Origin: Apostichopus japonicus
Taxonomy: Eukaryota; Echinodermata; Holothuroidea; Aspidochirotida; Stichopodidae
NCBI RefSeq assembly: GCF_037975245.1
Contig: NC_092568.1
Span: 16,449,001-16,513,000 of the forward strand
Direction: 5' to 3'
Length of the DNA stretch: 64,000 bases
Every line of letters begins with the position of its first letter. Position 1 is the stretch's first letter. Below are positions 7,201-53,231 of this stretch, in pieces. Under the pieces are notes generated by a model, which was not told the DNA's origin, did no database searches, and saw only the letters and a program-made list of their open reading frames with translations. The position numbers and the translations under genes were made by a program.

Positions 7201-8863
7201 CCATACAGTACACTCATTCATTAGCTACAAACATGTCAGATACTAATATATGGACCTATGATGTCCTACATAGCAGGAACATACCTTGACAGATTTAATG
7301 ATGCTGCCTGGAGGTTTAAAGGAAGATAGGAGAACTAGGATATCGTTTGCTGTAATCCTATCCCAATCCATGTTGCAGACAGCCAAGCGAGATGAGATCT
7401 CCTCTGTTCGCTTGGCCCCCGTGTCCAACTCTCCCCATCTATGCTCCACGTCAACATCCTCATTGCCCTCTGAATCACTTTCGTCTGAGCTGGAGGACTC
7501 CATCAAGACCTCCCCTCGACTGTAATCGACTCGCCTATCGGTGGAGGGCCCTGCTTCATCCGAAGAATCGTCCTCATCTGAAGAATCCGACGAGGATGAT
7601 ACTGATGATGATGGGTTCTTGAGAAGGTCACCTGTAAAAAGGTATGATATAATATTGAAGGGTGTGATAAACTGACACCTATACAGTTTGGAACGTACTA
7701 CCCCAAAGACATGTAATCAAATAAATTCTAAATAAATCATTAATAGAAGAAACTGAAGAAAACTTATGAATGAAAAGTTACTTATCTGCCTCTGCATGTG
7801 AATGGGTAAAACCCATGATTATGATGATATCAATATCACTATTTCAATTTCCTGAAATAATTAATTTATTAGTAACCTACACATCTCAACATTCCACAAC
7901 ACTTCCTTCTTTTAAACTCAGTTTTCTTCAAGGTTGCTTAACTCTCAACAAAACATCTATGTAATGATCATGGACTAGCATTGCGATGAATAGGAAAGCA
8001 AAGGCTGACTTAATCTAAAATGTGTGTTTGAATAAGTTCATGCATAAGTTGATTAAGTTCAAGTAAAATCAAGGACATCTTTAACATTTTCAGTACTTTA
8101 GTACTATAGCTCATAGCCTCTTTGTATTTACTTCTAGTTTTTATATAGTTAATCAACAAATCAACTTCAAAAACTAAGGAGACTGCTTTAAAGTTATCTT
8201 GCCGAATCATTTGCAGAATTCAATGGAGAAATAGGTTACATGCAAATTATACAAAAACTGATGAACTTGATAAATACCTTTCCCCACGGAGACCTTGTGG
8301 ACAGCATCTTCTTGCCCATTGTCCTGCTCGCCTTCCACCTGTTTTTCCTCTTTTTGTTCTCTCTCTAGTTGTTTGTTCGTGCCTTGGGTCTTACCCTTCT
8401 TTTGATTGCCTAACTTCTTCCTCTGTAATAACAATAACTTCAGTTCTTCTCTTCCACTCCGCCTTCTCTTTTTAGTTTGTGATTTCCCATTTTTTGACAA
8501 ATCCTCCTCCCCTGTTACACTTATTAATTTTCCAGACTCTCCATCATCCCTCTCTTGGGAGACCATCGTTTTACCTCCTTTAATTTTCTCCTCTTCTGCT
8601 TCATCATCACTCAGTCCAGAGTCTGAATCTGAGAGGTCATAAAATCTTTTCAAGGTTTCATCAGACCTCTGCTGTACGGGACGCCCACGTTTATCAATCG
8701 TCGATTTAATTTTGAATTTTTTGTCTTTAAACATAGCTTCAAACCGTCTGTCTATTTTTACTTTCCTCTCCCGTTTGCGCATCACTTTAAATCTTGGATC
8801 GCTTCCTATAGTGGAAAATCTTGCATCCTCTTCCTCCATAGTGCAGGCTTTTACGTTCTCCAA
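1268..8863 (-). CDS. ESF1: ESF1 nucleolar pre-rRNA processing protein
   Basis: Ten coding exons were modelled on the minus strand: 8863-8278, 7631-7285, 6237-6083, 5409-5296, 5144-4888, 4213-4064, 3715-3564, 2571-2472, 1999-1902 and 1714-1268. All have GT/AG borders and all phases agree (2406 nt, 801 aa; human about 851). ESF1 is a nucleolar protein needed for 18S rRNA maturation. The N-terminus carries the conserved block [20 protein letters not shown] and [10 protein letters not shown] (residues about 20-80). An acidic Ser-rich linker follows, then the central conserved region with [12 protein letters not shown] and [11 protein letters not shown]. Near the C-terminus is the NUC153-type motif [20 protein letters not shown] (about 707-730), then a basic tail. 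The start could instead be the second methionine, eight residues in. It is transcribed away from COMMD1. Confidence 0.93.
4690..4795 (-). mobile_element. Possible decayed tRNA-derived SINE in ESF1 intron 5
   Basis: Read on the minus strand, the segment resembles the head of a tRNA: CTTGCAGTGGTAAGAGTGTC looks like an A box, followed by a TTCAAA-containing block in place of a B box. No poly-A tail or target duplication was found, so this is weak. Confidence 0.3.
6396..7032. repeat. Tandem duplication of about 310 bp in ESF1 intron 2
   Basis: Copy A (about 6396-6706) and copy B (about 6722-7032) share long blocks offset by about 326 bp. Examples are AGTTATAGACAG, ATGGCTCA.GTCATCG, ACCTAGGTAAAGCACTGCAG and ACACTTCAGCCATT. 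Divergence of roughly 10-20% by eye suggests an old local duplication. No coding potential is seen in either copy. Confidence 0.85.
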
Positions 8864-10185
8864 CGTATAAATATTATTCCTTTAAAATCAAAGTGAAATT
8901 ATGGAAGATTACTTTTCAGGAGGATAACTTGATCATGAGGTATCAGGTTACTTAAATTATCTGGTTTTTGAATCAAATGGAATTGTTCAAAAGTTTCATT
9001 GAGTGAAAAATTGTAGCAAGTCACAGTTTGTAAGATTGCTATATTTTTATTTCTACTTTGCTACTTACTGTTATTCTTATAGATTTGGGTAACATTGTCA
9101 GAAATTGGTTACACATTGCAAAAAGCTGTATTTAGTGCAAATGAATGATGTTTCAGTTGCAGTAACCAAATGCACTCGGGATGTTGTGTCTGATACCTCA
9201 TAACCTGCTTCATGAATCATGAACTCTGACAGGGACTTGTCAAAAACCAGTGCATAGGCCTCCAACAGAAGGGTGGTCCCTCTCATCATGTAATGAAAGA
9301 CATTGTTAATGTGCTCTAGGCCTAGTCTAAGTATTCACGTCATAACTGCCTGATTGAAACTATTATTGAATGCTTAACGTTTACCCTTAACACTGCAACT
9401 TCGTTGCACAACGTACAAGCCTGGCATAGATGCGTCAAATACGTTGTCTTGCTATACTCTACTATTTACTATTACGTGGAGTGTAATATAGCGAACAACA
9501 GTACTAGTGGGACACAACAGTTATGACCTATGCATTGATAGTTGGCCTATGATTCCTTACCTTTATCAACCGGTGTGATTTCAGATATGTGGCTAATACT
9601 AGAAATGTAACAGCTGTTTCCTGTATTCAACTTTCAAAATATAGTATACTGCTGGTGAAGATTGAACTAGGTACTCTGTTCATAACTACTGTACTTGAAG
9701 AGCCGCCTGTAGTGTCTTGATGACAATCTAAGTTGTGTAGCAGGTTGAGGCACATGTGTTTTTAAATGTTGCGTAATACTACGACGATTGTAACCTATGA
9801 CCTGCAGGTTGGTGACTGCCCTCAGAAGTAATGTTGTTGCGCCTCCGACGGAACATTTATTCACGATAAATTTATACCCAACCAGCTGAAAGTGTTAGGA
9901 CCACAGCATCCAATTTTACATTGACGATTGAGGAAAGAGTATAGATTGCTGTGTTGCTTGGATATTTAAGTTGTATTATTAGTTGGGTTACATTGTACGC
10001 ACGAACAGCATTCATAAACACTATTACTTACTTGGCCTAGGCTGATACTTCAGTAGTATTAGTAATACTAATACTAATTGTAGGGAACCTTTAATATGCT
10101 TAGTGATCGTGTATAAAGAAATTCAGGCTATAGTGTGGACAACAAGTTTCGCTCAGCTATTTAAGCCGAACTTAGACACATTATT
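8864..10185. promoter_or_regulatory. Divergent intergenic region between ESF1 and COMMD1
   Basis: The two genes are transcribed away from each other, so both promoters should lie in these 1.3 kb. I see no convincing TATA box or CpG-rich block. The sequence is AT-rich with CG-containing stretches at about 9360-9480 and 9700-9850. A small minus-strand reading frame at 9098-9289 shows no recognisable protein features. Confidence 0.4.
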
Positions 10186-12708
10186 ATGGCAGACGAAGGC
10201 AATAGTACTGTAGGACTCCTGAATGGGATAGCAAAACGTGAATACTATGGAAGCACTGACATAACCGATGAGTTCCTGAAAGAAGAATTGTTTCCAAATC
10301 TTTCCACCGAAGAATTTACAGCAGTTTACGCAAAATGCAGTCATCTGTTGAAGGTAACTAAGGATTAACTTTCATTACCATTGCATTCATAAATTAAAAA
10401 AATTGTAGCCAGCAGTATCAATGCAATCACAAATTTAAATTTGCTTTCAGAAATTTGACTGGATTATCATTTTTAAAGGCATTGAAGACTCGCCCGAAAC
10501 CGCGTGCTGCGCTCTGAAAAAGTTTACTTTCCATTGCTTGCAAGTGAAGTTTTCTTCTTGTCGCTACAAAATGCAGACAGTAAAGAAATGTGACACCTTG
10601 TTATCTTTTATCTAGCCCAGAGATGTCCATTGTACACTGTGTTGTGGGTATTGACCATAGCTGTATGTATTGACTGTACACTAGTGTCTAATTATGGACG
10701 GTAGCAAGCTGTGTGTGTATTTTCTGTGATCGTGATCTGTGATGGTGGTGTCTAACACTTCTGTTACACCTCATTCGAAACTAGGTCAGATACCCGGCAT
10801 GAGACATTTCTTTGTGCGCGAGTCTTCACACCCTTTAAGTGCGGGATTGCAGTGTTGCACTTTATATCTTCATGAGTGAAAACGGTTGTGAAATTGCAAT
10901 AAATGTTCAGCATCACAATTCCTTTGATTTGTACAAATTTGTAGCACACTACATTTGTAATGCCTGTATTATTGCGACACTTTTGACAAGTTCAACCTGA
11001 ATGGGAAATTTGTATTGTATACTACTGTATCAGCCGAGTACAAACTGAAGTACCTTTAACAACTTGTAGTTATTGGGTCAGCCTCTGAAGAACCTCCTGA
11101 TAGGATTGAAACGTCAGGCCTGCTAACTTTTTCATATTTACCTACACAAAGTTTTTGCAACATTCATTCTGTTTTGCTTCACAGAGTATTGCATCAGCAG
11201 GAATGGACTTCAATCAACTTGAAGCTTTTCTAACCAGTCAGACTAAAAAGAAAGGTGGCCTTAGTGAGCCACAAGCTGCTGCATTTTCTAAATTTTGGAA
11301 GAATAACAAAACTAAAATACATAATGTTATGGTCTCGAGAGTAAGTATTTCCTTCTCTGTTGCTTTCTGCTATGAATGTGTGAAAATCAGCATTTGTTAA
11401 CAGATAGAAACTTGAAATACCTTGTTTTGTATACAACAATGATTTCAATATTTCTAGGAAGAATAACAATTTATTCAATTTTTTTTATAGAATTTAAGGC
11501 TTGTTTTGAGTCTCATTCAACCATATTCATCTTTCCCTAATATATCCTACTATATAACAGATGGTTGCATGGATTCTCAGGGCAAATATTTGTAAGAATT
11601 TTTTCTGAGTTGTCCTTCAGACAACCAGGTCTCACTTTGTTTGTGGTTGCTGGAAAAGCAACTTTGATTGTACGAAAAAGTGTAGCAAAATAACAAAGAA
11701 GAAGAACCAATATTTACACAGTAGGATAGAGATGTGTAGGTTTCTATTTCATCTCCAAAAGTAATGGAGGGTGATACCAATTTATCATTTGACCTATTTG
11801 GGGATAATTAGTAAAAATGCAATCTGAAGTTAACACTATTCAATTTTGTCATAGACCCCCCCCCCCCCCAAAGCTGATTTTGGTTGTCTGAAAATTTGGT
11901 CTTCTTGGATAATCGTTAAAAATTTGCACTGCATCATCTTATCATCACTCTTTGTCTTCTCTGCAGTCGACATATGGAAAAACCTTGAAAAATTTGAGCT
12001 GGAGAATAGATATCAAAGCCCAGGCAAAGAAAGTGGATCAGATAAATACTCCAACAGCAATAGTAGAATTACAACTAGCCAACAAGAACCAGTCACAAAG
12101 CAAGGTAGGTAACAGATTTGTAAATATTAAAAATATATATGTCAGAAGGTTATTTAGGCTAGGAGTGAATTTTTACCCTTTTCATGCTGCTTAAATAAAT
12201 AAAGACTACGGAGTAATGTTTTTGTTTTGTTTTTCCGAAGAGGGATTAGTACAACTTGTCTGATTTCAAGTTTATGGGGAGAGGAGGGTGATAGTGGTTA
12301 GAGAAATGACTTCCCTAACTACATTTGTATGAGGATCACATGCCCCAGAGTCATACTGTGCTGGCAAGACTTTCTTCCAAAAATATTTTAAAACAATTTG
12401 AAAAAGAGAGGGGCAATGCCGCAAAGAATTGGATATCAGTAATGATGGATGATCCGTCTGAGTATATTGGCACTATGGGGTCAAAAATTTTCATATTAAG
12501 GTTAGCATTTTGAAAATCTTTCAGCTTTGTAAACATTTGCCATATCAGATTAACATGTAAAGACAAGGTTATTTATTTTCTTCCACCCTTCTTCCTTTCC
12601 TTTTAGGAAGATGATGTAGTGCAGTTTGAGTTGGATGAAGTAATGCTGGGTTCACTTACAAGGAGCTTAGAAGAAATCGAAGAACGCCTTATTACCTTCG
12701 CTAAATGA
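10186..12708 (+). CDS. COMMD1: COMMD1, Commander complex subunit
   Basis: Four exons were modelled: 10186-10353, 11185-11340, 11967-12104 and 12607-12708. All junctions are phase 0 (564 nt, 187 aa; human 190 aa). Exon 2 reads SIASAGMDFNQLEAFLTSQT, nearly identical to human COMMD1. Residues about 1-105 form the helical HN domain. Exons 3 and 4 form the COMM domain, including LSWRIDIK, TPTAIVELQL, the FELDEV strand and a final helix ending in ITFAK. COMMD1 acts in the CCC/Commander complex that recycles endosomal cargo, including copper ATPases, and it restrains NF-kB in vertebrates. The start ATG is followed by ADEGNSTVGLLNGIAKREYY, which aligns with the human N-terminus. Nothing looks truncated. 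Confidence 0.95.
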
Positions 12709-24953: not shown

Positions 24954-26871
24954 CTTGCTTCAAAAGTTGAAGATATTCTTCAATGTAAACTCATTCATCA
25001 TGTAATTCTGTATCTAACTTGGGCGGAGGGGCGACGTACGGAAGCGTAGAAGAAACAAGTACATTGACGACGTACACACATTACAAAACGTCAAAAATCT
25101 ATATATAAAAAAGTGTTTTGCACACTTACTATAATCTATCCAAACCCGATAAAACTTTGGAAAACAGTAATAGATTTTGACCTTTTTTTATACGCAACGT
25201 ATATGGATGTAATGTGGTGTCCTTTTTACGCCACCGTGGTAAACGGTGAAGATCTGAGTAATACCCTAATTGTGTGCATAAATCTGAGCACATGGGGACC
25301 ATGAGTGAGAAATATTAGAACCTTGCAAAATAGATGAAAGATCAAACCGACCATCCTACCTCCTCCCCTCCCAAACAATAATAATGTTATTAATTCTCAG
25401 AGGTGACCGTATGTACTTTCATAGCTTCTAAATTTAAAGAATAGTCATACTGTAATGAAAGCCATAGCCTACCATAAAGTAGAGAGTTTGGACTGGAATG
25501 CTGTGACGGCTTAAGTTCCGAAGTTATCATCATAGAGGTAGCCTTGAGTGTTATTCAATCACGTGACAGAGGTGATAATGTGGATGAACAATGGTCTTTA
25601 TAGATTTGGAAATTGTACTCCAATTAACAGTCCATCGCCAAATTACATAGTACGCTGTACTTACGACATACGCGTTTAGTATGTTTAGTTTTAATCGTTT
25701 TCTTTGGTCATACGGTAACTCATGAAATCATCAATCGGGTAGCGAAGTAGCATTTAGCGTTCCTATATAGTGGTGTTTACTAGCATTCCTACATCCACTC
25801 AACATCCACCAAACTTGGATTTCTAGGTGATAATGATAGCATTAGTTTCATCACCGGTAGTAATATATTCTAGCTGGTGCGGTATTTTATATTCCGATTG
25901 GGGTCTTTGTTGCGCCGGTTACAACTTAATATTAACTATCAATTAGTTCAGATACTAATACACTGATATCGTTAGAGCAATTCTTCAAACTCGGCTTATA
26001 TCCAAGGTGTTTTTTAATCGGCTCATGCATGTGTCTGATTAGTCACAACTTTCACTTCCTCCGTCATAACATACACCAGCTGAATGGTTCTGGTTCACAA
26101 TCTCAAAATAACTGAATTCCATGCAGTAACTCATGCGATTATTCGTGTGAGGTCACTTCCCAAAGAACTTTTGTTCAAGTTCGGTCCTTTCATACATTTC
26201 GATAGCTTAACTAACTGTATAAGATGTAACGACGTAATGACAATTGTTTGCAAACGTACAAATAATTCGATTGGTATTCCCACATATGGATCTTACCGGG
26301 GGGGGGGGGGGACCGGGGGTGCGGAGGGGGGGGGGCAGGAGACATCTTCTTGTTCTTTCAATTCTTTACAACATGAGCTTATAGCTATATACATTTACAT
26401 ATAGCAGAATAAAGGCGAGAGTGGTTAGAGGTTGAGGCTCGAGTCGCTATTCTGATTTCATTGCAAATATGAACCAAATAGCCTTTGTTAAATATAGTAT
26501 CACAGAACCTTAAGAATATGCAATTCCAGCATGTTATGATTATAGAATATTTAGATGAAGTACATACTCTTCTATAACTGGTGATGTTACTGGGAAATTG
26601 CTTAACCATCATTCCAAACACACATACACACCCATGCAAACAAACTAATTTCTCTCAAGCAAAGGATTTAGTTTTTTATAGTGTTTTATTTACTTATTCT
26701 TTATTTATAGTTTTTTATTTACTTTTTCTTTATTTTTAGTTATTTATTTCAATATCAGTCATCATCAAAAGCATTTTAGCAGTTTAGAAAGAATGTTTTT
26801 TAATAGTATTTTAGCAATTTGGAAATCTTGTTTTTTATAACATTTTGTTTAAATATATAGCAGACAAAAAT
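24954..26871. other. Gap between NEPRO and the repeat-tail membrane gene
   Basis: The NEPRO promoter should lie just above 24953. The rest is AT-rich with a poly-G tract at about 26298-26334 and no convincing exon. From 26670 to 26850 the sequence repeats short TTTATTTA and TTTTTTATA words. On the minus strand these supply several AATAAA signals (nearest at about 26740) for the downstream end of the membrane gene. Confidence 0.4.
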
Positions 26872-29800
26872 TTAATTGAAGAAACGATTTTGTATAAAAG
26901 TTATTGTGAGGAAAAACAAGGTTTCTTCGAGATTCGGGTACCGGAGACCGTTTGGAAGACTTCCAGTGCCGGTGAGTTGTTCGGTTATCTCGGTGCGAAG
27001 GTCGTTACTGCGGTTGGCGGTTTCAACGATATGGTTATGTCGAAGAGGACGGATGATATAGTCAGTTGCCAGTGGTAACTCAAGGGTGCAGGCTCTATTT
27101 CTGTTTGGAACGTCATTAGCCTGTATCACTGCAGAGTCAAGGCTACCATCGCAGGATGGAAACAGTAACTCCAGGTGGTAGGAGTCGTCGTTAAATGGAT
27201 CTTCGTCTTCATCAGTCGTTAAGCCGGTAGAATACTCAAAAGAGGAGTACTCAGTTGGCTGGTAGGTAGACCCGCCAGAGCTCATCAGAATGTCATGATT
27301 ATTGACGTCATCGATGACGTCATCTTCACTACTGATCGATGAAGTAGACGAAGAGGATGCCAGGCTGGAGGTGATGTCACTGGATGAACTGCTCAGGCTG
27401 GAGATGGTTGAGATGTTCTCAAACCCGAATGGTAAATCCAATCTGCGAGGTTCATGGCTGTGTGGAATGTCGTACATCTGCGTGAATTCAGCGCTACCAA
27501 ACGAGTTTGCAAATGGTAATTCAAGGTGGTAAGGATTACCGTAATGGGACACTTCATCTTCATCGGTCTCTGAGTCCCAGGATGCCTCAAAGTCAAATGG
27601 ACTGCTTTCGTCTGCCTGTGACTGGGTGTTAGACCTGTCAGATGCAAATATATCATCAGCAAATGGATCCACGTAGTCCTCTTGAGTTAAAAGCGATGAA
27701 GAACTGGAGGGAGATACCAATCTGGAACTCGAGTCACTGGAGGGAGGCGATACAGTGCAGAAGTTATCAAACTCCAATGGTAAGTCAATGGCGTATGCTC
27801 CATTATTGCGTGGAATGTCGTTCTCTTGGATCGTAGAGTAGAGGCTATCATCGGATGATGGAAACAGTAGCTCGAGATGGTAGGAGTCATCTTCAAATGG
27901 ATCTTCGTTTACTTCAGCCTCTGAGTAAAGGCTGTCAATTGCCATGACATCATCAACAGATGGTGCTATGTAGTCCTCTTGACTAATAATTGATGAAGAC
28001 AGCAGGCTAGAACTCGAGTCACTGGAGGGAGGCGATACAGTGCAGAAGTTATCAAACTCCAATGGTAAGTCAATGGCGTATGCTCCATTATTGCGTGGAA
28101 TGTCGTTCTCTTGGATCGTAGAGTAGAGGCTATCATCGGATGATGGAAACAGTAGCTCGAGATGGTAGGAGTCATCTTCAAATGGATCTTCGTTTGCTTC
28201 GGTCTCTGAGTAAAGGCTGTCAAATGCCATGACATCATCAACAGATGGTGCTGTGTAGTCCTCTTGACTGATAATTGATAAAGACAGCAGGCTGGAAGTC
28301 GAGCCACTGGAGGAAAGCGACAATCTTGAAGTGGTATCAGTAACCGATGGTAACACAAGAATGCGTGCTTCGTTTCTGTTTGGGCCGCCGTATTTCGTGC
28401 TCGTACCACCAAGGGTCGATTCATGGTTGGAAGCAGATGTAGAGGTACTGATCTCGTCTGGTCGGTTGTGTGCAGATCTCTTTCTATTATTCAAGCCGCA
28501 GATGACGTCTGGCGTGACAGTGAAGAATGACGAATGACACAGAACTGGGGGCAACCGACTGAAACTGCTGACTATGGGTGAAGATGACCGACTGGAGGTG
28601 GTAACAGTTGGTGAAGATAGCACACTAGAGGTTGTGACGATGGAGGTGGTGTAGACAGATGACGAAGACTCATGACGAAATACATCTTTGATACTCCTGG
28701 CACCATGGTCAATTGTTATTGTTGGTGAATAACGAGTTGGGTGTAGGAAACGTCTAGGAAACAATAGATAAGTAATATTTTACAATCGTTGAAAAGCTAC
28801 ACACTAATCGTTTGATAATACTGTAACATTTACTCAGTCTAAGATTCAGGGGGTGCCTAAATATTCCCTACAGAGGAATGGTGGTGGTATGGAAACAATT
28901 CGGTTTGGATGGTTGTGTGTTAGTAGCGACGAGCTTTGAACCTCGCTATTACATGCAGAGAATATAACACATAGATAAACGAGTAAAGAACGAACTCTGA
29001 GATTTCGTAATCTATTACTACAATCAGCCACAATACATCGGCACGAAGCCCTCAATAATAAATAGAAAACATGTACTTAAACGAAAATGGTTACAAACGA
29101 GGTCTCGAGATTGATCCACCTTATATGATGGACAGACGTCACGTGATATGTATTACGTCACTGTCCACATGGAAAGCACATGTGGCTAAAAACGTTGACA
29201 TGTAGCCTGAATAAATAGAGGGCGACATATATGATGACCAACGCCATCACACTACAATATGATTAATTTCTCCACCTAATTTAAGTTAAGTCCAGTTTAG
29301 AAAATTTACTGAGAGGGAGTTCCATGAAGGGGGAGAGGGGGGGGGGCATCCTTTTATCTTAATCTTTACATTTATAACTTCCCTGTTTCTCCCATATAGT
29401 TATCACAGTGGAACTATGATTAAGGTTCACATATTGGGAGGATAGAGAGGAATATTAGTAAGTCGTCTTTAATTTATACTTTGCAAGGAAAGAAAATGCC
29501 AATGAGTTGCTTGCAAATGTTAGTTATTTTGTTTATTTTGTTTGCCACTATTATTCATCATTGCATGGATTTACCTCTGCCGGATTTTATGACCGATGTT
29601 TTCTTCAAGTGCACGAGTGTCAAACGAGGTAGATCCCCATGGCAATAGCTGAACAGTTCTACATATCCTGTTCTGTTCGATGTTCTTGTCCTTAGGAATG
29701 CCACCGTCAGCTAAAGGGAGTTGAAAAGGAATATGTTTGTATAATCTGATTTTGTATCTGCAAATGAATAATTGGATGGAGAGGAATGGCCAAGATATAA

Positions 29801-32800
29801 AGTTAGCTTAAGACATGTAACGTAGACAGATTAGCTGCACTAACCGAAGTAACTAGACCGTGTAAAGAAATTCAACCAGTGATTATTTGGTTGGCCTCTT
29901 AATGAAGAATTCATTTACTTAAGTTTTGTTATTAACGAATATACTGACCAGCTTTGAAATAATTATGTGACATTGCCGGGAAGACGATAACTGCTGTTAA
30001 CAATTAAGGAGGTATGATGTACATATATAAACAATTAAAGTTAAGATGATGGTTCTTCGCTTGCAAATCAACTTAACAACTGACTAAATTACACAATGAG
30101 GGTACCTATAATTCTACAGAAGTCGCAGCCTAAGAATAATTCTTACCATTATCATAGAGGGCGGGAAGGTGTTCATTTGGATCATGATTTCTGTTCGAGA
30201 GTCGCCTCATGTATGTATGCAGCACGGTCTGGATGATTATACCTGAAATAAAAGAACATAAATAATTAGAATAACAACTAATCAAGTTTAAATAGTTATG
30301 TAATTCAATGTGACAACAGTCTTATGATATTATGAGATGAAAACACCAAGACTTACCACAAGTAAGTACAAACAGCAAGGTGGTCATTTGAAGATCAGAG
30401 AGGGCGTCCTTCAGTCGATCATTCTTGGTAGTAGTTGGGCAAGTCATATTCCATTGATAATCCATTGAGTTCTCAGTTGGAATCTGCTCGAAGTAACTAA
30501 GCATACCGAAGAAGACTTGATAAACGAAGGAGATGAATTCTCTTTGAAAGACTAGCAACTCGTCCACCGCTGATGAAAGGATGTCAAAGATGTACTTCGT
30601 CCATGAATGTAGATCCACGAATGCTTCTCTACTTATTCGCTGGACTCGGTGGTTAACTTTGTGGTATTGGTCAATCATGCAGTAGACGAGGGATGATAAG
30701 AGGTGCTCAGTGTTTGCTCCAGTAGTCACATGATCACTCTCAAGCTCTGAATATTCATCGTCAATATTCGTCAGATTTGTGAGAGACAAGTTTCCTTTAC
30801 TCTTTCTGTCGCTGTCGAGTCCGGAAGAGTCCATACAGTATTTGGTGTACCGATGCTGTGTTTGTGTGAACTGTGAGAAGAGAAGATAAAAAAAATCTAT
30901 AAAAATATGAAAGATGAAGCATATGTTCAAAATGCAAGCACGCATTATTCATATATTTAATACAACAACGCCACATGGGATTATCAATTAAAACATTGAG
31001 TACAAGGGCGAGGAAAGTGAGTATTTGTAGACACATCAAGGTAGTATCACATACACACACACAAACTATTTCTCTTCCTGATAACAGACAGACAGGTCTT
31101 GAAGCTCAACGTCAGATCATGCAGCAATTATAGATTCCTATCTTTTAGAAAACCAGAGATTATCTAAACGATGACCAAAAGAAGTCATTTATACAAAAAT
31201 TTCCTTGTTAACTATAGACATGGAGATATTATCGGTAGGGTGAGATAGGGAAGTGTGGGGGGGGGTAGGGCTTTAAGCCTTTTGGTTTTTCAGTTTCAGT
31301 TTATTTTATTGTTTTGATGCTCCCAGGACAAGAAAAAATCATTACATAAGGTACGGAGAAAGGTAAGAAGGAATATGAAACAGTTGCCTAACCCTGTATA
31401 AGTCAACAAGATAAGAGTACTCAGTACTTAATGCTTTTTATAATTTCACGACAAAGACGCAAAACATTCTTAGTTTTAGTTTGAAAAGAGACTTTTATAT
31501 GTGATGGGATTCAGCCTGTAGTACTGGATATATGAATATCTCTCTTGTCTGAAAATGCTGAGTATTCAAACACTAAATGGATTACATCAACCATTTTTCA
31601 CTCCAAACATTTAAATTACTAATCCTTTCATGAAATACAAAGTTCTGGAATTTGCCGATAACTGAAAAAAGCGCATTGCGGTGTTATTACATAGTATAGT
31701 TGAACACATGCTTATGCGGCCAAACTTTTTAAATTTGCTCCGACTGAGCTATACAAAACGTGAAGTAGTACGATACTTATATTCATTTAGCTTATTGTAT
31801 TTCACTTGACTTCTCTAATCGGCCGTTGTAAGTCACAATACGACATAATTAGTGACACTACATTTCAAGCGTATAGGAAACAAGCTCATTACTATATATC
31901 ATTTGGACTAGAGTTCCTTTATGAAGGAACTCTAATTTGGACTGTCTGGACAAAGTGAATCTGTCTTTGGTCAAGTTTTTTTGTATTACATTTTGCTATC
32001 ATTGATATGCGAAAACTTCTGGACTGTTTTTAATATGAATACTTATTTTTTTTTTGAAAGAAGTTGGAGGGGGCCGGGGGGGGGCGGGATAATAATTTTT
32101 AGCTATTGCGATATTCAAGATAATCACCTTTAAAATGTACCAAGCCTTTGCTCAATTAACTTGGATAAATTGATGATGACGTTGGCTCCTCAGTGCTTGA
32201 CTTAATGTTACTGTTAATCCGCTGTTTCATAAATTCCAACAAGTCGCTTGTTTTTTCATATACTCCATTTAAAACAACAGAGCACACTCGGATACATTCA
32301 ACACCATTTTCCACTGACAAATTTGTTACACATTAATAACATGTGTTGCATCTGAGGAACTGATCTTGTCATTTGTGTCTTAGACTACATTATCCAGTCA
32401 CTCTAATGGTCATTCCTGAAAAATTAATCGTGTTATATGATACCACGTGGATTGATATCAGTGATGTTAAACGGTCCACATCATATCAACTAATAATTGT
32501 ATGCTTTAAGTCTTAAGTTTCTGTAATTCCTTTTACACTATGTTAACCTTACTTAGCCTGGAACTCTCGATTACAACATTCTGTGAATTGAATACCATAC
32601 GTTTGCGTTTGTTTGTGCGATATAGTCGAGACTGAAATGGTCTTGATACGGAATATTGATATGAATGCGTCCATTAGCCTTTATGATAGTAGTTGTAGAT
32701 AAACGCGTAACGTTTAATTCCTTACCAGGTTGAGACTGTTGACGATTTCAGATGCATTTACTTCAGCAAAAATCCCAACACTTTCCGAATTAACGTGTAA

Positions 32801-32875
32801 ATCCACATCAATGATAGTTCGTGCAACCAAACAGAACAAAACACAAGCAGCTCCGAAGAAGAAAATGCGAACCAT
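26872..32875 (-). CDS. Unrecognised single-pass membrane protein with repetitive acidic Ser-rich tail
   Basis: Five exons were modelled: 32875-32726, 30870-30357, 30242-30147, 29710-29575 and 28753-26872. They have GT/AG borders and agreeing phases (2778 nt, 925 aa). Residues 1-20 (MVRIFFFGAACVLFCLVART) look like a signal peptide. The ectodomain (about 20-210) has three cysteines, N-glycosylation sites in NLSLTNLT and NMTC, and predicted-looking helices (HLLSSLVYCMIDQYHKV and DILSSAVDELLVFQREFISF). One transmembrane segment follows (about 212-232, MTTLLFVLTCGIIIQTVLHT), then the stop-transfer RRL. The cytoplasmic tail of about 690 residues is Ser-, Asp- and Glu-rich, with about 4.5 repeats of about 95 aa from residue 420 to 865. 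I recognise no family. An adhesion or receptor-like role is possible but not shown. Confidence 0.75.
27055..28275 (-). repeat. Coding tandem repeats in the tail exon
   Basis: Repeat 1 (28275-27991) and repeat 2 (27990-27706) are each 285 nt and almost identical over their whole length. Repeats 3 and 4 (27705 to about 27055) are clearly diverged, with longer Ser runs and indels. Each encodes the order SQEDY, an acidic block EDPFEDDSYHLELLF, then a second half like NGAYAIDLPLEFDNF. Confidence 0.9.
31909..31934. repeat. Perfect 11-bp hairpin
   Basis: TAGAGTTCCTT, loop TATG, AAGGAACTCTA. It lies in intron 1 of the membrane-protein gene. It may be a remnant of a foldback element, and no wider inverted repeat is evident. 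Confidence 0.8.
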
Positions 32876-34798: not shown

Positions 34799-37053
34799 TT
34801 CATATCCAGGCAGCTGTTTCCGTTAGTTGAGCTGTAAAGTCTGACTACACAGCTATTTATACTTAGAAACGCCGTACACTTTAAATATACATTTGTTGAC
34901 GTACAGACTACCGTACTCAATATAACCAGATACTGTGCAACTTCCATAAGATTAAGAAGTTAAAAGACGAACAAAGCGGTACCTTTGTTCAAAGGAAAGC
35001 GTGAAAATCTAGAAGAGATTAATTCTTTGTCAGGCCAAATGAGATATGACTTCGTGGCTACAAAAGTGGTAGAAAATATATTTCATATTAGGACTGATTG
35101 GATTTTGTAATATCATTTATCTGTCGTTCAATTGACATCATACATGATATTTGATACAGTAAACGTAAGCCTAAGTTAGGCTAAGCTTGTAATACTTTAG
35201 TAGTACTACTACTACTAGTAGGAATAGGATAGGCCTATCGTATATTACAATGGCTAGGCCTATACTGTCTTACCGTATTGTATTGTAAGGTGGGAACGGT
35301 AACTTCGCTATGCTAAACGAACAAACGTTCATTTAAATGACAAACTTAATGATAATATATTATATTGCTCTTTGGTTTAGTTTTATCCTTCAGATACAGT
35401 ATTTCATCATTATTTTGATCAGATTCCTCTAGAATAAGATTTATACTGTTTACAGTAATAAAAGCCGGGTGAAAAAGTGGAAGGAAAAATTTCCTGAACT
35501 TGGCACATGTTTTACAGTATAATTCCTGTAAATGGGTGAAATACTATGTGAGAATGCATCAACTTACATAAAGACAGACAGCTAAGTTGGATAATTGAAC
35601 CAGGTTAGTGGTCTCTCCAACCGTCCCTTTTGGATGTGTCTGTTTCCCTTTCACTGTTTCTTAAATTATGAAGATCCTGCTAGGATCGATAAGTATGGCA
35701 CTCATACTTTTGAATATTTAACTACACTGGCTCATGACAATAGATAAGCAGTTTTATAATGTTGTTCTCACATTGATTTTCACAGTTAGGCCTAGGTATT
35801 TAAATGCTACATCCCCAAAAATCTGTAGAATTGGGTAAAAATAGGCTGAGTTGCGCAAAATCCGTCTTAAACAAGGTAGCAATTTTAAAAGTAATATAGG
35901 GCCTATAAAACATCTGTGGGTTTTACACATCCACCTCTGAAGTAGTAAAGGCTATGTAAATTGAATGGTCTCCCTAACATCGTTCCTGCAGAACACAATG
36001 GCAGAGCTAATTTTTTAACAATCGTAGGATCATCCGAGACGACCCAAAGTTTAATCCTTCACCAACTCTTTCTGAAAATTTACACTAGAAAAATTTGACA
36101 AAGAATGTAATGTGAACATGTATCATTCTTACATGTTCCTGCAAAAAGAGGAAGTTTCATTAAAAAATATTTCAGCATTAGGAGATGCTATGCAATGCGA
36201 TATCTTTGAAGTGAAGCAAGGTTACTGCTAATGACAGGTTGGTGCAGATATATAGTTGGTGATCAGTATAATTTAGCTGCTTGGCTGGATATTGCCGATC
36301 AAATTATGAGTTTCTATATTTATCGATAATCAAAACATTAATATCTTGAGTAGTAGATAGAAGTACTTGTAAAGACAAGTTATAAAATTCTGCCAGTATA
36401 TCACCATCAAATATGCTCCTCTTTTTTAAGTGTAATCAAATGTAACATAATGTAATTGTGTCACTTTCTCACTAGTTTGAGAATGAACACAAGAGACTTC
36501 TATAATGTATGTACATCTAATCAGAAATGCATCATACTAGTAAACTTATGATGAATGTTTATTAAGGCAATGACAGAATATACAATATATGATGATATGC
36601 AGCCAGAGTGAATAGCTTGCTAATCACGTATCTCAGAGAGTCAACTATAATGCACGGTGACGCTTTTGAGTTTCAAGAATGTGATTACCCATTGAAGATT
36701 TGTTTTACTTTTAACATTATATACATGTACAGGCCAAGGATGCTTTTGATTTGAAAAAGGCTCAATTGTATTCTTTACATAAAACAATGAATGGCATTGT
36801 TTACCTTCAAAGTTTCTGACTTTACCATTGTTTCCTAGATAGGCTGCTTTGAATTTCAAACAAATAATACTCACCGAAAAACATAAAACGATTGTTGATA
36901 CGTTAGTGTTAAATGACTATCACATAAATTCTTTCCCACCCTGGCAGGATTCATGTGAAGTTGGGAAAAGCCTTCATTGAAGTAAGACCGAAAAACTGTA
37001 CCAAAATGCAAACCGCAACGATTTCTTAAATTCTTGGACTACCTTGTAACAAA

Positions 37054-40000
37054 ATGGAAGAGAGCAACACAGTTGGCCAACAACCTGAGGATACAATGCT
37101 GTATCCATTGGTTCATACATCTCTTGAAAAAGATTTAAGTATACCATCAGGAAGTACACCATCTGTGGATGATTTGATGAATCCAAGTAAGAGCAGCAAC
37201 CTCTCTTTGCCTGTCGCATCGTGTCACGAGACGTCCTTGATCCCGCAACAGCCGTCTTCGACCTTACCCTCGCAGCAGGTGGTCAGCACCAGCATAACCA
37301 CGTCGGGTTCTAATCCCTTGCAAGTCTCTGTAAAGACAGTTCCCGGTACAAATACCATCGTTAATCAGGCGCTCATCAATAATATAGTTAATTCAGAGGC
37401 TGTGCAGACCCTGTTGAGAGACAACCCCGGTCAACCTATCACGATCGTCAGAATGCCAGAAACCTTGCAGCTACCAAAGGTAAACTATCCCTTCACGCCG
37501 ATTAACAACTTGAATTTGAACAATCTCAAGACCAGAAAGAGGAACGGAACAACTTTATCTTTGAGAGGCAAACGAGCGAGAAAGCCCAAAGTTGAGGGAA
37601 CTCAGGAGGAAAAGACAAATGTTCTACAGTTCCAGAAATCCTTGCAGGTCAAAACTAGGTCTGGAAGAGTTTCAAAGCCACCTCTATACAGGGTTAAGGA
37701 GACGTTGCGTCCAAATTCAGGAGAGCAGAGCAATAAGGCCAAAGATGGATCTGTGGTTGAGACGGAGGGAGTAACCATCCACTCACAGCAAGACAGGTAT
37801 AAATTTAGAACTTACAGCTTAGTCATGTCAGTAAAATAATATAATATGTCCTTTTGTAACTTTTTCCATTATCCAAATTAGTGCAAAAACTTGAGGAGGT
37901 AAAAACAACAATATTTTATATAGCCATGCACTAATGGAAATCTGTCTATATTACGGTTTACTATATATAGATCATATTTTGATCAGTTTGTAGGCATTAA
38001 CGGTTTATCTTCAAATTTGCACAGTTGAACAAATGGTACATTTGTTTTTTGTTTCATGACAATCATTTAATTAAGTACATAAGACTTTCGTTAAATATTG
38101 GTAATTTGCACGGTAAGCTATGAACTAGTGAGTGTAACACCTCTCCCTACCACTATTTTTGTTTTATGTCAATATATCCAAAGTAATGTAGTGTAATCAA
38201 AATTTATGGTTGTTACCTATTTGGGAGTATTTTGTTACAACGCCATCTGAATTTGATACAAGCAACTAATTGTCTTGGACCACAACCTCAATAGCTGATT
38301 TTTTTTTCTGTCCGAATATTAGAAAATTTTGGTTGTTTCAGATGGTAAAATTTGCTCTATAGAAAATGTTTTTAGAGTTATATAGAACTTTATATTTGAT
38401 TCACAAATATGACTTACATTAAATATTGGTTCTATCACAGCTGAGTATCAGCCAGTGGTTAACCACTGCCCATAACAGTAGGAATTTACGATGAACTGCC
38501 CAACAAATTTGTGTAGTCCAACATTAGAAGAAAACTGACACATTCTGTCCACCCTTTCCTTTGCAATCATTAAGATAGTGTTACAGATATGTAGTACGGA
38601 TAATAGTTCACAAGACCTTTACCGCGAAAATATCTATGCACAGTCTATTCCACAGTCCAAAGTTAATTTGCTGATAATGAAATTAAAGTACATGACATGT
38701 GAATATCAAACTTCTATCTTAACTAAGAATACTAGAATACCATCTGATGGAATAGGCACCCTTATATGACCCTCTGCATTGCTTATACTGTACCACAGTG
38801 GAGTTGAATGTTTTTGTGGCTTAGGAAAAGTTGAATGAGATTTTTGTTTTTCTGTAAACTTTCATAGCATCTTCAGTATCATTGCACTGATGATGAAAGG
38901 GTTGCTTTCATCTCTGTCTATACTTGAAACAGGTAATGGCAGACTATAAGATTGTTGAAGGTGTCCACACGGAAATAGTGGATGAGTCTCGATTGTTTGC
39001 AGTATTTCTGTGAGCACTTGTCAGGACTCGGGAAGTACAAACTTACTATTCCGTAAAATGATATTGTAAGTTATTATTCTGAAGTCGTATAAATGTCTCC
39101 CTTTCTTAGCTTGCCCCTCGAAGAGACAGGGCACACAACAACACCTACCGCTGCCATCAGGGGTCAGCATACCCCACGGAGAGGTCATAGAGGTTTTAGA
39201 GGTTACAGCAGGGGCAGAAGGAGAGCTAGAGGTCGAGTTGGGAACTTTGGTAACAGGTTATCATCTTCTGCAAAGTTAAAAGAAGTAAGTAACTACAATA
39301 TCATGATAATTCCACACAGTATATAGTCTTTAATACGATTATTTCTTGTGTTGTGTATAGCACCTCGATGCATGACATGATGGGAGTAAGGGCTTGATTC
39401 TTGCATAGTGGTATATTTATATTTAATATAAACAACACATATACCAATAACCCTTACAGGTACATAAATTTGTGAAACATGATCACCTCACAATCATTTC
39501 ACACTGTATAGTCTTCAAACTATATCCATCAATGAATGAGCTTCTTGTGTGCATCATGTACAAACAATGATCAAGTCAGCTTCTTGTGTGCGCCAGAGAT
39601 CTTGAGCACCTTGGCGCAAGACACTTGACTGTTGTACAAACTGTAATGTAAATATTACAAATATTTTCTTTCTGAATAACAGGTAAGGTACACCTTAGCC
39701 TCACGCCAAGTAAGTTTTTGCAGCAGTGATTCTCGATCCATTCCATATGTTTCATATGTTTCATATCGCGGCTCGTCTTAATAACACAGTGAATTTTTTA
39801 ATGTCAAAACATGTGAGGGCCCCCTAAATGTGGGCGGGGGGGCAGGTGTCACAGCCCTGCTTAAGCCGCCTTTAACCTGGTACTGAAAGCAGGGTATTCT
39901 CATTTAACTGCTGATTTCAAAATTTTCAAATCAAAGGAACATTGTGAAATGTGTCAACAGAGAATTGAAGACAACTTTTGTAGGTACATATTTTACCTTT

Positions 40001-43000
40001 CGATAGCACTGACTTTCACTGATAAACATTGGTAATTCATCAATCAAAGTGGCTTGACTACCTACTGTAAGTGTAGGAAACAGCCCTTGAAATCAACGCA
40101 AAGTCAAAAGGGAAATAAAAGGGTAAGACTTATTTACGCTTCATTGCATTATTTTGTCGTTCAAAAAGGGAGGGAATCCATCCCCAGGTTTCTCTCTTGT
40201 TTAGTTGAAGCTGAAAGAATATTTTTATAGAGTGAAAAATGTTTAACCAATGAGGAAATAGGAACTGGCTTGGTCACGATCATGAGGTTTTAACAAATTG
40301 TCAAAATAGGTTTATGTGGTAGCTAAATTACCTTGAAATGACAACAAAGAAATCTCAATATTGGTGTAGAAAGGTTGCATATACATCAATGTTATTAGAT
40401 ATGTTTTGTATACTGTATAAACATTGAACTTCTATCTAATGTTATCCTTGATGGTTTGTTATTTGTTTGACCATATTTCCAACCTCTTCAAAGGTAATAT
40501 TTGAGGCAATAGTGAAGGATTTAGTTGGCCTTGCACTGACAGGGAAGTGTTGAGTCCCATAGATCTGCGATATCACTTTGCACATTTTCTGTACAAATCA
40601 TGGAACATGCCATTATACCATAAGTGCAAGACTTGGAATTCAGGCTGTTCTACTGGCTAACTGCCGGTAGATTTTTCTGTTTGCCAGTAGAAAAAAAAGG
40701 CACTAGCATTTTTTCTGCCTGTAGTATTTAAGAACATAAAGGTTTGGTAAGTTGGTTAACAATCGTCAATCAAAGAATCCAAATGATTTCCTGATTGCAG
40801 CATATAATCAGCATACATTATTGGGCTGCTCTCAACAGCCGGTACAGTAACTGATGTGACCTGCAATACAGGAAAATGACAACTTTGATTTTAACCAGTA
40901 TATGTTTTAAGCACTTGCAGTTTTTAAAGCAAGTGGCGAAACGTTTGGAATTCTAGGCCTGAAATGGTGAAATTTTGTACTATATTTATCGATCATATGA
41001 GCCAATGTTATGATTAATCCAGAGAGAGATAGAGAGAACAGGATCCCTCAGCTGGCCAAACTAACAGCCAATTGATATTATTTAACTTCTCCTTTCAGCT
41101 CCTTACTGAAATACCAGATGAAGATCTAATCTCTTTGACTATGCCTAGACTTTCTGAAATATTATCACCTTGGGATTTTCTTTTGATGAGGGCATTCAAA
41201 AAAAGGAAGACAGAACCGGATAAGATCAGCTTTGTGACCCTCTTGAAGGAGTTTGAGGATTTGTTGGATCAGTTAAAGACTGTAAGCAGGGAGTGTTTGG
41301 TCTCTGACAGAGAGACAGACGACCGACCAATGGTAGAACTCTCTGGAGAACTTAGTGGAGTGTTAGGGACGAGTAAGGGATACATCTGTGATATCCGTAA
41401 AGAATCTTTACCACCAAGGTGAGTAGTGTGGTATTACCAAGTTGGACTGTTCAACGTGATATTACTTGGTCACTCAATATGGCATATAAACAGTTAAAAT
41501 GGATGGCTTATTACATGTTATTACTTGTTATGAATATTTTTATTACATCAGTAACCATGGCTCAATTTTTTATTCAGATATGAGGGCTGTTTTTGATTGT
41601 GCATGTGTGTGGATGGTGGTATAGTTTTACAGATTTTATTTTATTTTTTTAGGGGGGGGGGGTGATTTATGAGAACTATTCAAGGTTTTTTTTTCTCTAT
41701 CAGTACACTAAATTTAACAACCTTTTTTGATGTGTTTTTTTTCTTATACCGTACTTAAGGTTGGTACAACAGCAATCAATGTATTTAATAGATGAAAATA
41801 CATTAATTAAATGTCAAGTTACATGAGTTGGAATGGTTCTTTGAATATATTTTTTAAGCCACTTCTGCTACATGTATGAAGTAGGCTGTGCAAATATATT
41901 CCTGTAGCAAATTTGTTAACATTGGGTCTTTAGACCTTTCAACAAACATGCCACACAAACATGCCACACATATAATATCTTGTATATGTGAGATTGCGAG
42001 GAGATATGACATGTAAATGCAAAATAAAGAGATTCTTACAAGTGTATCTTATCATAGGAAACAAGACTCTTCTTCACAAGGGACCAGTTTTTAATTTTAA
42101 TGATATTGGCTTTGCCCTGGTATTTCTTACTAGAGATCTATTTTCATGCTTTTAAGAACGAACTGCCCATCGCCCTTCGACCCTCTCAACCAATAATCCA
42201 TAGGAGGCTAAATGCAGGTTATGAAAGTTGACCAATGCTAAAGGTGTTCAAGCTTTTAGAACTTGTTTGTCACACCCTCAGAATGTGAATACTTTTCATG
42301 TTTCCATCGTTTCATACTTTATAATAAAATTAAAAGTTTCATATGAGATTTAGCACAATTGCACTAGTAAGAAAAGTACAGTATTTGTTACCAACGTTTT
42401 ACTGTACTTGGTATCGTGAGTGAAAGAAATGCTCTCGCCATGGTGACTGTGTGTGACAACAACAAAGTCATCAAGAATTGGCAAAAGGGTGTAATCATTG
42501 TAGTGTTTCATTTTATGTTAATCACTAATATAGATACAGTTGCTGTTGTCACAGAGATATGTTGCAGTATATGCTGCTACCATATAAACTATGTAATATT
42601 TCCATGTTTACATTTTATTGAGAGTTTATGTTAACTTGTACATCATAAACATAACTTAGTATCTGTATACTAAAACAGCTATTGTGAATCTTCCCATTGA
42701 AACAATTTGACCGTTTTGCGTATTCAACAGTCCATGTCCATTTTGCATATTCAACATGCCATGTCCAATTTGCATATTCAACAGTCCATGTCCATTTTGC
42801 ATATTCAACAGTCCATTTTGCATATTCAACATTCCATGTCCATTTTGCATATTCAACAGTCCATGCCCATTTTGCATATTCAACATGCCATGTCCATTTT
42901 GTTATACCAGGCAAAGTGCACTATGTGTGCAATTGAATCCATCTGTTTATATTTACAGTGTCGTTAAACTGATGGAATCGACGTCGGAGTCTGCAAAATC

Positions 43001-45974
43001 AACAACAGTTATTGATGAAGAGATAACAGACGTTGATGCACCCTCGTTGTCTTCCGTGAGTTTGCACTGAGTTATGATCTATGCATAGTGACATGGTTAA
43101 ATAACTCCTCTTACCCTGACAACTATCCTCAATAGCGAGACAAACCAAGTACCATTTGTGAGGCACCGATCCGGATCAAGCAATGTCCTATTTCTGCAAT
43201 ATGCAATGTTTGTAGCACCTTCAGAAAGTGAAATATCTTTAGCTGTCCATTGTGTATCTCTGCATAGTATCTTCCTGCAAAAGGAGCACTTTTACATACC
43301 AGTGTTTGTAATATAAAATATTTGATTAGTTACAAAAAATTTAAAACTGTTGAAGGTACAAAGCAATCTGTTTTAGCCAACCTTATAGAAACGACTTTTC
43401 TTCCAAGTGTTGATGTACGTGTTGGTTTAAATGGCATGATCACAACATTTAATTTAATTTCTGTCTTCTGATTTCATCTCAGAAAGTAGTGACGAAAGTC
43501 GTCGATTTGTCACAACTCTGGTTAAGGGTTTCTGTTTCATAGGTGTTAATATGGAGATTTATATCTTGCAGGAACTAGCAGCTGCCCAGGGATTGTTACA
43601 AGTCCCTAAATGCACAAAAATTGGTGATAAAATTTTGGGAGTGGAAACCATCTTCCCTGATAATGCCTTGAAGAGCTCAGCAACCAACACAGTGGCAGAA
43701 ACAGCAGCCAGTAAATTATCCGTAAGTAAATATACTTTGGTTCTCATCGGTCTTTTAGGTTTGGTTATGTTTGATATTTATACATCACTACTCACTTCTT
43801 AGTTGATGATACAGGTGAATCAAAGCCAAACAGATGTGCTAAAGAATTCAACTAAAGTCAAGCAGCTGATTGTCCTGGTGGAGGGGGGGTAAGTTGTTAT
43901 GTCACCCACGGGAAAGGGTCTAAGGGTGGCCCCTCCCTTTGAGAAAATTTGCTTGGATGCAAAATGGTACTATTTGTTAAAACTTTTGAAACAATGTTGA
44001 AGAAGTAATCGCTCACAAGAAACAAATCAGAAAACTGTTGAAATTTTCCATTTTCTTCATTGATTGAAATTGAAAATGGACTAGTGAAGTGACAGAATAG
44101 CATTGTTATTGCGTTTATGGTGTACACTAGATTGAAAAATGAGCAACCTCAATGCCAAGAAAAAGGTGTAAGTTATCAAATGTGTTGCTTTTGTTCAAAT
44201 TAGTGGCATTTTATTAATTTATTATAATTTTTGCCACATTCTTGTAAGGCAGGCAAAGCATGGTAACCATGGAAACACAGTGACCATGGAAACAAAGTGA
44301 CCATGGTTGTTGACTTGGCACGTTTTATGCCTTGTAGCTGAACTGGCATATTACAATGCAAGTACTATTTGTGTTATATTTCTTGTGTGCCTGGGCCAGT
44401 TTTGTGCTGAATCGCAAACACGAATTAAGTTGATGAAGAAATTGTTCAGCTCGGACACAAGTCCATATTTAATCGTTTTTTGAATGGTTCAGTATAGAAA
44501 TCTGGGTAATGAACAATCCTAGTAGTTAGACGACTGGATATTAATCCAGCTTTGTACTATAAATGTTTTTTGTTTACATTAGAGAAGTGTCAGACTAAAT
44601 TTCCCACCCCCCCACCCTTGTTTTGGCCAGTTGTAAAGAGATCACCCATCAGATAATGTAATATCATCAACTCACAGGTCCCAACTGTGAAGACTCTTAT
44701 TCAGATTCAGCCGTGCAGTGAAGCATCTGTAGATGTAGGTGGTATGATTGTCAATGTCGAGGAGCTCGACTCAACAGTATTAAATTCAGGAGCGGACGAT
44801 CTCAACCTGAACCAGACGGTTCAGCCTACTGACTCCTCGGTTCATTTGGAATCTGAGCATGGTGCTCTCCATGAGCCTGCCACTGCCCTATCTATTCATG
44901 ACCCAGCCAGCTCCCTCACAGAGGCCATACCTCTACAGGAGCCAACAGACACCTTGTCCAATCCATTGCCGCCTGTGGTATCCACGTTAAGTGCCGATTC
45001 GGTCCAGGTGAGTCTCTGAGTAGTTTTTTTTGGGGCTTAGCTTACTTTTATAGAGACTGTCCAGGTAATTTGTCCCATCTTTTTTCCAGGGACTTTCAAG
45101 CTGTTCATAGTTCAGAAACTCCCAATTCGCACCTTCAGACAGTTTTGATTTCTGTTGTTTTCTACAGTTCAATAAACAAAACAATTGTAAAGTGTCAACC
45201 TGGATTGAATTTCTTATTTCAAAGTCACAAAAATTTCACAACAGCTGAAAATTGAATATTCAGAATACTTTAAGTTGTACTCTGGATGATCATAACCAAC
45301 GATTTTTGTTTGAGGCTTAAACTCACTATAAACTTCACTGTGAACTACAGGACCAGCAACCATAGCACCAGTTGGCAGAGGTTTTGTGAACATAGCTAAG
45401 TACTTGCCAATTAAATGTACCTAGAAATATTCCATTGATGTTTTAGCTGTATTTCCAGTATTGAAACACACAGGGGTATGTTTATATTTAATGTAATTAA
45501 TGCTATACATGCCTCTTTGTGTGGTTCATAAAGGTGTAACAAGGCATTGAATTCCCATCAATGATCGTTTGGCATTGTTGCAAGAATTTCTTAGAAAAAT
45601 GTATAGATTTTGGCCAGCATAATTGTTTACTCTTTCACCTCGTTTTTTAGGATCACTCGACAGTCATCCAGGCAATGGTACCAGAAGCCTTGCCATCACC
45701 TCAGTCGTTGCAGCCTGCTACTACACCAATGGTTCCAGAGGGGAGCACCATCCTACAAATGTCAGATGGCAATTTCCTAGTCCAGAAACCTGATGGTACT
45801 GCAATGCAAATACAAGCCCCTGAAGGCATGACCATTGAGACCATTCAAGCTCTACTGACTGTTGAGACTGAAGTGTTTGATCAGGGGGATCCTGAGAGGC
45901 CAGCCGTACCTACATCAGTGCAGACCACAGATCAGGTACCTTTCCTTTCTGTGGAAGATCCTGTAGCCAGCTAG
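37054..45974 (+). CDS. ZNF839: ZNF839-like nuclear protein
   Basis: Seven exons were modelled: 37054-37796, 39110-39284, 41099-41418, 42959-43055, 43572-43721, 44678-45007 and 45651-45974. They have GT/AG borders and consistent phases (2139 nt, 712 aa). Family marks are KTRSGRVSKPPLYRVK (residues 200-215), then EDLISLTMPRLSEILSPWDF followed by LLKEFEDLLDQLKTVSRECL (about 314-375). A C-terminal STILQMSDGNFLVQKPDG segment resembles the end of human ZNF839. Exon 2 is Arg/Gly-rich (RRGHRGFRGYSRGRRRARGR). I could not find the C2H2 finger that human ZNF839 carries between the RSGR motif and the EDL region, so an exon may be missed or the finger lost. Function is poorly known. It is convergent with CINP. 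Confidence 0.68.
38933..39013 (+). other. Possible cryptic or relic ZNF839 exon
   Basis: After an acceptor-like tacttgaaacag, an open stretch reads MADYKIVEGVHTEIVDESRL. DYK-hydrophobic recalls the KDYKFI that follows the RSGR motif in human ZNF839. The phase does not fit the modelled upstream donor, and a stop follows after 26 codons. Confidence 0.2.
39565..39744 (+). repeat. Dispersed repeat, copy 2
   Basis: Same family and orientation as 33213-33406, here in intron 2 of the ZNF839-like gene. The CTTCTTGTGTGC word occurs once more just upstream at about 39541, so one end may be duplicated. Confidence 0.85.
42713..42901. repeat. 27-bp minisatellite beside ZNF839 exon 4
   Basis: About seven units of a 27-bp sequence like TTTTGCATATTCAACAGTCC plus ATGTCCA, with one shortened unit. 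Units differ mainly at CAG/CAT and GT/GC positions. It ends 57 bp before the exon at 42959. Confidence 0.95.
44262..44309. repeat. Three tandem CCATGG-containing units, X-box-like
   Basis: GGTAACCATGGAAACACAG, TGACCATGGAAACAAAG and TGACCATGG follow one another with a period of about 18 bp in ZNF839 intron 5. The first resembles an RFX X-box (GTNRCCNNRGYAAC) with one mismatch. Confidence 0.6.
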
Positions 45975-53109: not shown

Positions 53110-53231
53110 AAATCGTAGTGAGTTGGAAAAACCAGAACAGTGAAAAACTTACAGCCTCTACCGGGATTCGAACCCAGGCCTCCCGCTTTATATGCGGACA
53201 CCCTCATCACTAGGCTATGGACGCTGATTGT
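53110..53231 (-). mobile_element. tRNA-derived SINE, copy interrupted by a hAT-like element
   Basis: Read on the minus strand, TAGCCTAGTGATGAGGGTGT (A-box region) is followed by GGGTTCGAATCCCGG (B box), then a tail TGTAAGTTTTTCACTGTTCT. The acceptor ends do not pair, so this is not a working tRNA. Its 5' side continues beyond the inserted element at 53636 and beyond. Confidence 0.75.

Follow-up and report, generated by a model that had tools for sequence, protein, structure and literature searches.

The window analysed here, a 64-kilobase (kb) stretch of Apostichopus japonicus DNA (contig NC_092568.1), probably contains a genuine animal gene encoding a single-pass membrane protein, located by sequence analysis at positions 26872-32875 on the minus strand. 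The predicted protein comprises exactly 925 amino acids (aa), in which a small ectodomain and one membrane span precede a long acidic tail built from repeats. Tentatively, we read it as a type I single-pass membrane protein whose tail, presumed cytoplasmic, may be a multivalent docking array for putative partners of two kinds, SH2 adaptors of the CRK type and AP-2 appendages. The protein is a credible orphan rather than a new kind of system.

Structure of the predicted gene

The gene was rebuilt from the sequence, and the five-exon, phase-consistent model of the initial annotation was reproduced exactly. The exons measure 150, 514, 96, 136 and 1882 nucleotides (nt), the junction phases are 0, 1, 1 and 2, and all four introns are of the GT-AG type with the donors GTAAGG, GTAAGT, GTAAGA and GTAAAT. 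The exons and the elements downstream of the stop codon are as follows.

32726..32875, minus strand: exon 1, aa 1-50, with the start codon and an N-terminus resembling a signal peptide, ending in phase 0; hydrophobic start, donor GTAAGG
30357..30870, minus strand: exon 2, encoding most of the ectodomain, including the amphipathic helical segment at aa 104-181, as well as the first half of the span; stop-free codons, hydrophobic moment
30147..30242, minus strand: exon 3, encoding what remains of the span plus basic juxtamembrane sequence; GT-AG, in phase
29575..29710, minus strand: exon 4, juxtamembrane segment of about 45 aa; links phase 1 to phase 2, codon usage
26872..28753, minus strand: exon 5, Ser/Thr-rich region, acidic repeats, C-terminus and stop; 635-codon open frame, repeats
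26685..26748, minus strand: five polyadenylation-type hexamers (AATAAA) downstream of the stop codon; pattern scan

The number of AATAAA hexamers carries little weight because they lie inside a tandem repeat (26675-26749, AT-rich, 29-nt unit). A scan of the 5' flank for bacterial-type promoters was uninformative, with 1 found against 1.1 expected.

Coding is well supported for exons 5 and 2. Exon 5 sits within its open frame of 635 codons, and exon 2 consists of 171 stop-free codons with 8 to 14 stops in each of its other five frames. Exon 4 is fairly supported: of 1056 overlapping stop-free noncoding segments, 3 match or beat its codon score. For exons 1 and 3 codon usage offers little support (166 of 720 and 358 of 2242 such segments, respectively, score at least as high), and these two are supported mostly via their splice sites and fit. 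Splice sites were graded on a simple scale of our own with maxima of 18 for acceptors and 9 for donors, on which the four junctions reached 14-17 and 7, respectively. Codon usage was trained on 1615 codons from twelve neighbouring open reading frames (ORFs) judged coding by eye and is of limited value: in-frame scores are negative for exons 1-3, and in the last exon the coding frame (41.7) is outscored by an antisense frame (112.9) that contains 23 stops.

Phase consistency, offered initially as strong evidence for a gene, proved weaker than claimed. On its own it is weak evidence because 75 of 500 first-order random introns also yielded at least one exon of at least 130 nt with the required phases at lax splice scores. 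Within the real intron, exon 4 is the sole candidate of its size, the other candidate measuring 64 nt.

Membrane topology and ectodomain

Topology was assigned from Kyte-Doolittle hydropathy using 19-residue means and a threshold of 1.5. The protein begins with a signal-peptide-like segment (residues 1-19, hydropathy up to 2.39), and a single further hydrophobic stretch with means above 1.5 lies within residues 206-233, followed by two arginines. The resulting ectodomain has 192 aa and the tail about 692 aa. Hydropathy and hydrophobic moment support the layout proposed from the first reading, namely a signal peptide, a helical ectodomain of about 190 aa, one span and a tail of about 690 aa. 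Four of the six N-glycosylation sequons fall in the ectodomain (N40, N77, N82 and N191) and two in the tail; the ectodomain contains three cysteines, at positions 62, 114 and 194.

A coherent amphipathic helical stretch runs through residues 104-181 (78 aa, bounds set by eye). Its hydrophobic moment of 0.39 at 100 degrees is a peak that, across the angles tested, 1 of 2000 shuffled sequences attained. The moment at the heptad angle was 0.16, and the stretch is therefore not a plain heptad coiled coil. The structure prediction suggested earlier for the ectodomain was run on exon 2 only. The AlphaFold model was mostly helical, with the long helical stretch split into two helices (exon residues 50-76 and 81-128), and was of low confidence (predicted local distance difference test (pLDDT) score 48, predicted template modelling (pTM) score 0.28), too poor for a fold search.

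Repeats of the tail

Three parts make up the tail: a juxtamembrane segment, a region rich in Ser/Thr (residues 301-460, 38% Ser+Thr) and a repeat region (residues 461-890). The initial annotation described a Ser/Asp/Glu-rich tail with about 4.5 repeats, and the alignment agrees on the repeats, with a half unit near aa 426-462 preceding four full units. The 430 aa of the repeat region contain 90 D/E and 12 K/R, for a net charge of -78, and 24% Ser/Thr. The four full units are listed below.

27985..28269, minus strand: repeat unit 1, aa 461-555; 285-nt tandem period, 95% identity to unit 2
27700..27984, minus strand: repeat unit 2, aa 556-650; 285-nt tandem period
27328..27699, minus strand: repeat unit 3, about aa 651-774, diverged; protein alignment
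26977..27327, minus strand: repeat unit 4, about aa 775-890, diverged, plus residues after; protein alignment

Alignment of the four units gave 18 invariant columns, including YHLEL, the F that follows it, Q, D, P and LP. By the Nei-Gojobori method the synonymous proportion exceeded the nonsynonymous proportion in all six unit pairs; the respective values were 0.10 and 0.03 for units 1-2, 0.44 and 0.20 for units 1-4, and 0.59 and 0.47 for units 3-4. As far as sequence comparison can tell, these differences fit constraint at the protein level without proving it. Unit 1, modelled with the four-row alignment, displayed only helical turns of 3 residues (pLDDT 56, pTM 0.12).

Short motifs

The tail was scanned with thirty motif patterns (one listed twice), and the counts were compared with those in shuffled sequences. 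YxxP occurred six times against 1.52 expected, a count reached in 0.004 of 2000 shuffles; in residues 301-925 with unit 2 removed, the count was five against 1.09 expected (6 of 5000 shuffles). DPF/W occurred four times against 0.21 expected (0 of 2000 shuffles), and removal of unit 2 left three DPFs against 0.15 expected (2 of 5000). The four DPFs lie far apart and in acidic context. YxxPhi was not enriched (4 against 5.67 expected), and the clathrin-box, dileucine and NPxY patterns had no match in the tail.

An immunoreceptor-type tail was also considered. The pattern of the immunoreceptor tyrosine-based activation motif (ITAM) had no match in the tail. The three matches of the inhibition type (ITIM) are no enrichment, with 1.58 expected and 0.205 of shuffles reaching that count; immunoreceptor tail motifs are not supported.

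Database searches

The initial annotation placed the protein in no known family, and that statement holds within the databases covered, no animal proteome collection being among them. Pfam, searched at E values up to 10 with the 925-aa model and with exon 2, returned no family. For NCBIfam the queries were exon 2 and a 598-aa portion of the last exon, and a single noise row came back (15.1 bits against a cut-off of 475); the PDB sequences contained no match at E values up to 10 for residues 1-300 or the same 598 aa. Among viral contigs, exon 2 gave no pattern match and the 598 aa gave two pattern matches, none of them a relative; among prokaryote genome contigs, the 598 aa gave 19 pattern matches and again no relative. 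A tblastn search for a second copy within the window recovered, besides the gene's own exons, only two weak rows, one at E 0.089, lying antisense to the gene's last exon, and one at E 0.77 (54861-54736). None of the paper titles listed in the literature searches concerned such a protein, few of those searches being directed at membrane proteins of echinoderms or sea urchins.

Neighbouring genes and repeats

Ten neighbouring ORFs were scanned against Pfam, and two scored above the cut-off, with COMMD1_N (E 5e-17) and DUF4764 (8.4e-08). Both fit an animal and name no phylum. These and the other features of the window are listed below.

6386-7030: 324-nt tandem duplication, 84% matches, inside the span of ORFs taken for ESF1
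8276-8866: ORF with a sub-threshold NUC153 row (0.019)
10186-12700, plus strand: COMMD1-like gene, the COMMD1_N match (E 5e-17) lying on the first exon; further exons by eye
37048-45971, plus strand: DUF4764-matching ORFs, with 41033-41419 above the cut-off (8.4e-08) and 37048-37797 below it (1.4e-04); end at 45971 by eye
42714-42901: 27-nt tandem array of about seven copies, inside the span of the DUF4764-type ORFs
53152-53225, minus strand: tRNA-like gene, tRNA-Tyr with anticodon ATA (ARAGORN), Rfam 47.3 bits
60533-61696: 48-nt tandem array of about 24 copies, 85% matches, a satellite-like block

The ORFs at 1-9 kb are presumably ESF1, which the NUC153 row fits. The name COMMD1 beyond the Pfam match, and the names of the other neighbours, are likewise our assumption. 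An ATA anticodon is unusual for tRNA-Tyr, and the tRNA-like gene is perhaps a pseudogene or a tRNA-derived element.

Discussion

In the docking-array reading, the helical stretch of the ectodomain would pack with itself or with a partner, and the tail would be cytoplasmic and disordered. Tyrosine phosphorylation would take place at the recurring YxxP and YHLEL sites, upon which the tail would gather several CRK-type SH2 adaptors, while the scattered DPF motifs would recruit AP-2 alpha appendages. The repeats would add avidity, the array would act like a membrane-borne p130Cas/BCAR1 substrate domain, and the protein would be cleared through clathrin-mediated uptake.

Precedents exist for both halves of this mechanism. 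Choanoflagellate transmembrane proteins with cytosolic YxxP repeats have been described, and phosphopeptides of one of them bind a CRK-type SH2 domain, in the account given in PMC5043372. These proteins, from S. rosetta and M. brevicollis, resemble the present one in being transmembrane with several YxxP motifs in a cytosolic region; they differ in that SH2-like domains are present in three of the five and known extracellular domains in some, a comparison made by description (PMC5043372). The p130Cas substrate domain is described in the same source as containing 15 YxxP motifs, in a family that carries SH3 and FAT-like domains (PMC5043372). The likeness to BCAR1/p130Cas is a region of repeated YxxP, six here and enriched post hoc, whereas the present protein is a membrane protein in which Pfam (E up to 10, 925-aa model) detected no SH3 or FAT-like domain. 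It is not a member of the BCAR1/p130Cas family, though it may work like a membrane-borne form of that substrate domain. For the AP-2 half, single scattered DPFs are described in PMC4921775 as binding the alpha appendage weakly and gaining through avidity. The C-terminal region of Eps15 likewise presents a DPF array outside folded domains, but with fifteen DPFs, some closely spaced, by the description in PMC4731787, as against four, far apart, in a membrane protein here.

Several observations weigh against a docking array. The YxxP and DPF enrichments are post hoc, picked from thirty patterns tried, and the motif copies are not independent, the units being homologous. The DPFs of units 1, 2 and 4 represent one ancestral site, at which unit 3 has no DPF, having one elsewhere; the YxxP at the QEDY site is missing in unit 4. 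The best-conserved core, YHLEL...DIP...LDLP, fits no motif known to us, no motif library having been searched. The acidic context of the tyrosines, matched in 59 of 5000 shuffles with unit 2, is weak without it (323 of 5000). Between units 1 and 2, 11 codons changed nonsynonymously and 5 synonymously among 106 ungapped codons, with 6, 6 and 8 mismatches at codon positions 1, 2 and 3. The unit pairs behind the substitution proportions are not independent either, and the compared stretches were picked by protein similarity, which biases them toward low nonsynonymous change. Finally, neither composition nor models of low confidence are proof of disorder. The signalling or scaffold receptor suggested from the first reading stands as plausible, and is sharpened by the repeated YxxP and DPF motifs and the conserved cores; the motif evidence for it is post hoc, and its partners are putative.

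It is also possible, with somewhat less confidence than we give the docking array, that the tail serves as a disordered, polyanionic spacer or as a condensate-forming scaffold, in which bulk charge would matter rather than short motifs and the repeats would have grown by slippage or unequal exchange. The net charge and Ser/Thr content of the repeats suit such a tail, as do the recent 285-nt tandem duplication that produced the 95% identical units 1 and 2 and the raw excess of nonsynonymous codon changes between them. Against this reading, the invariant columns across diverged units include hydrophobic and aromatic residues (YHLEL, LP) and not charged ones alone, and synonymous differences exceed nonsynonymous ones per site.

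An endocytic receptor or cargo-type protein, whose tail would chiefly recruit AP-2 via DPF with signalling secondary, appears unlikely. Four DPFs in acidic context are consistent with this, and single scattered DPFs suit the alpha appendage as it is described in PMC4921775. The array nevertheless amounts to at most two independent DPF sites, and the tail shows neither an enrichment of YxxPhi nor any match to the clathrin-box, dileucine and NPxY patterns. FCHo-type domains are described as binding DPFs spaced 2-3 residues apart, or 5 for a weak site (PMC4731787), and the tail lacks the close spacing of the ligands described there.

It is improbable that the model fuses a gene for a small membrane protein, made up of exons 1-3 or 1-4, with a separate gene for a repeat protein in the last exon, or that the exon number is off by one. 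Exons 1 and 3 draw little support from codon usage, phase-1 acceptors within the last exon (28571, 28544, 28508 and 28457) would allow exon 3 to be joined to exon 5 without exon 4, and intron 3 contains two overlapping cassette candidates of 42-45 nt. Against these points, the phases fit at all four junctions, where acceptors score 14-17 of 18 and donors 7 of 9.

A nuclear-envelope or endoplasmic reticulum membrane protein of the KAR5/GEX1/Brambleberry type is very improbable: the signal-like start and the long helical stretch ahead of the membrane span are shared, but that family is described in PMC4291462 as having six cysteines near the N-terminus, conserved in every orthologue, and two or three membrane spans, C-terminal in position, as against three ectodomain cysteines and one span here. 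As to the signal peptide and coiled coil of that family, the present protein has the signal-like start and an amphipathic stretch whose moment is 0.39 at 100 degrees, compared with 0.16 at the heptad angle. The identity fails on cysteines and spans unless the model misses an exon, and intron 1 contained no right-phase cassette exon at the thresholds used.

Beyond the docking array itself, we consider it doubtful, though conceivable, that the protein represents a lineage-restricted animal receptor family with its own repeat-built docking array, combining YxxP with a new conserved YHLEL...DIP...LDLP module and growing by tandem duplication of its units. Animal genomes hold many orphan membrane proteins with low-complexity tails, and if the tail is not a docking array, this protein would be one more of them. 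If it is, the gene would be a compact example of a membrane protein gaining signalling or trafficking valency through the duplication of one short unit, with the conserved YHLEL/LDLP core as an interaction module that would merit identification.
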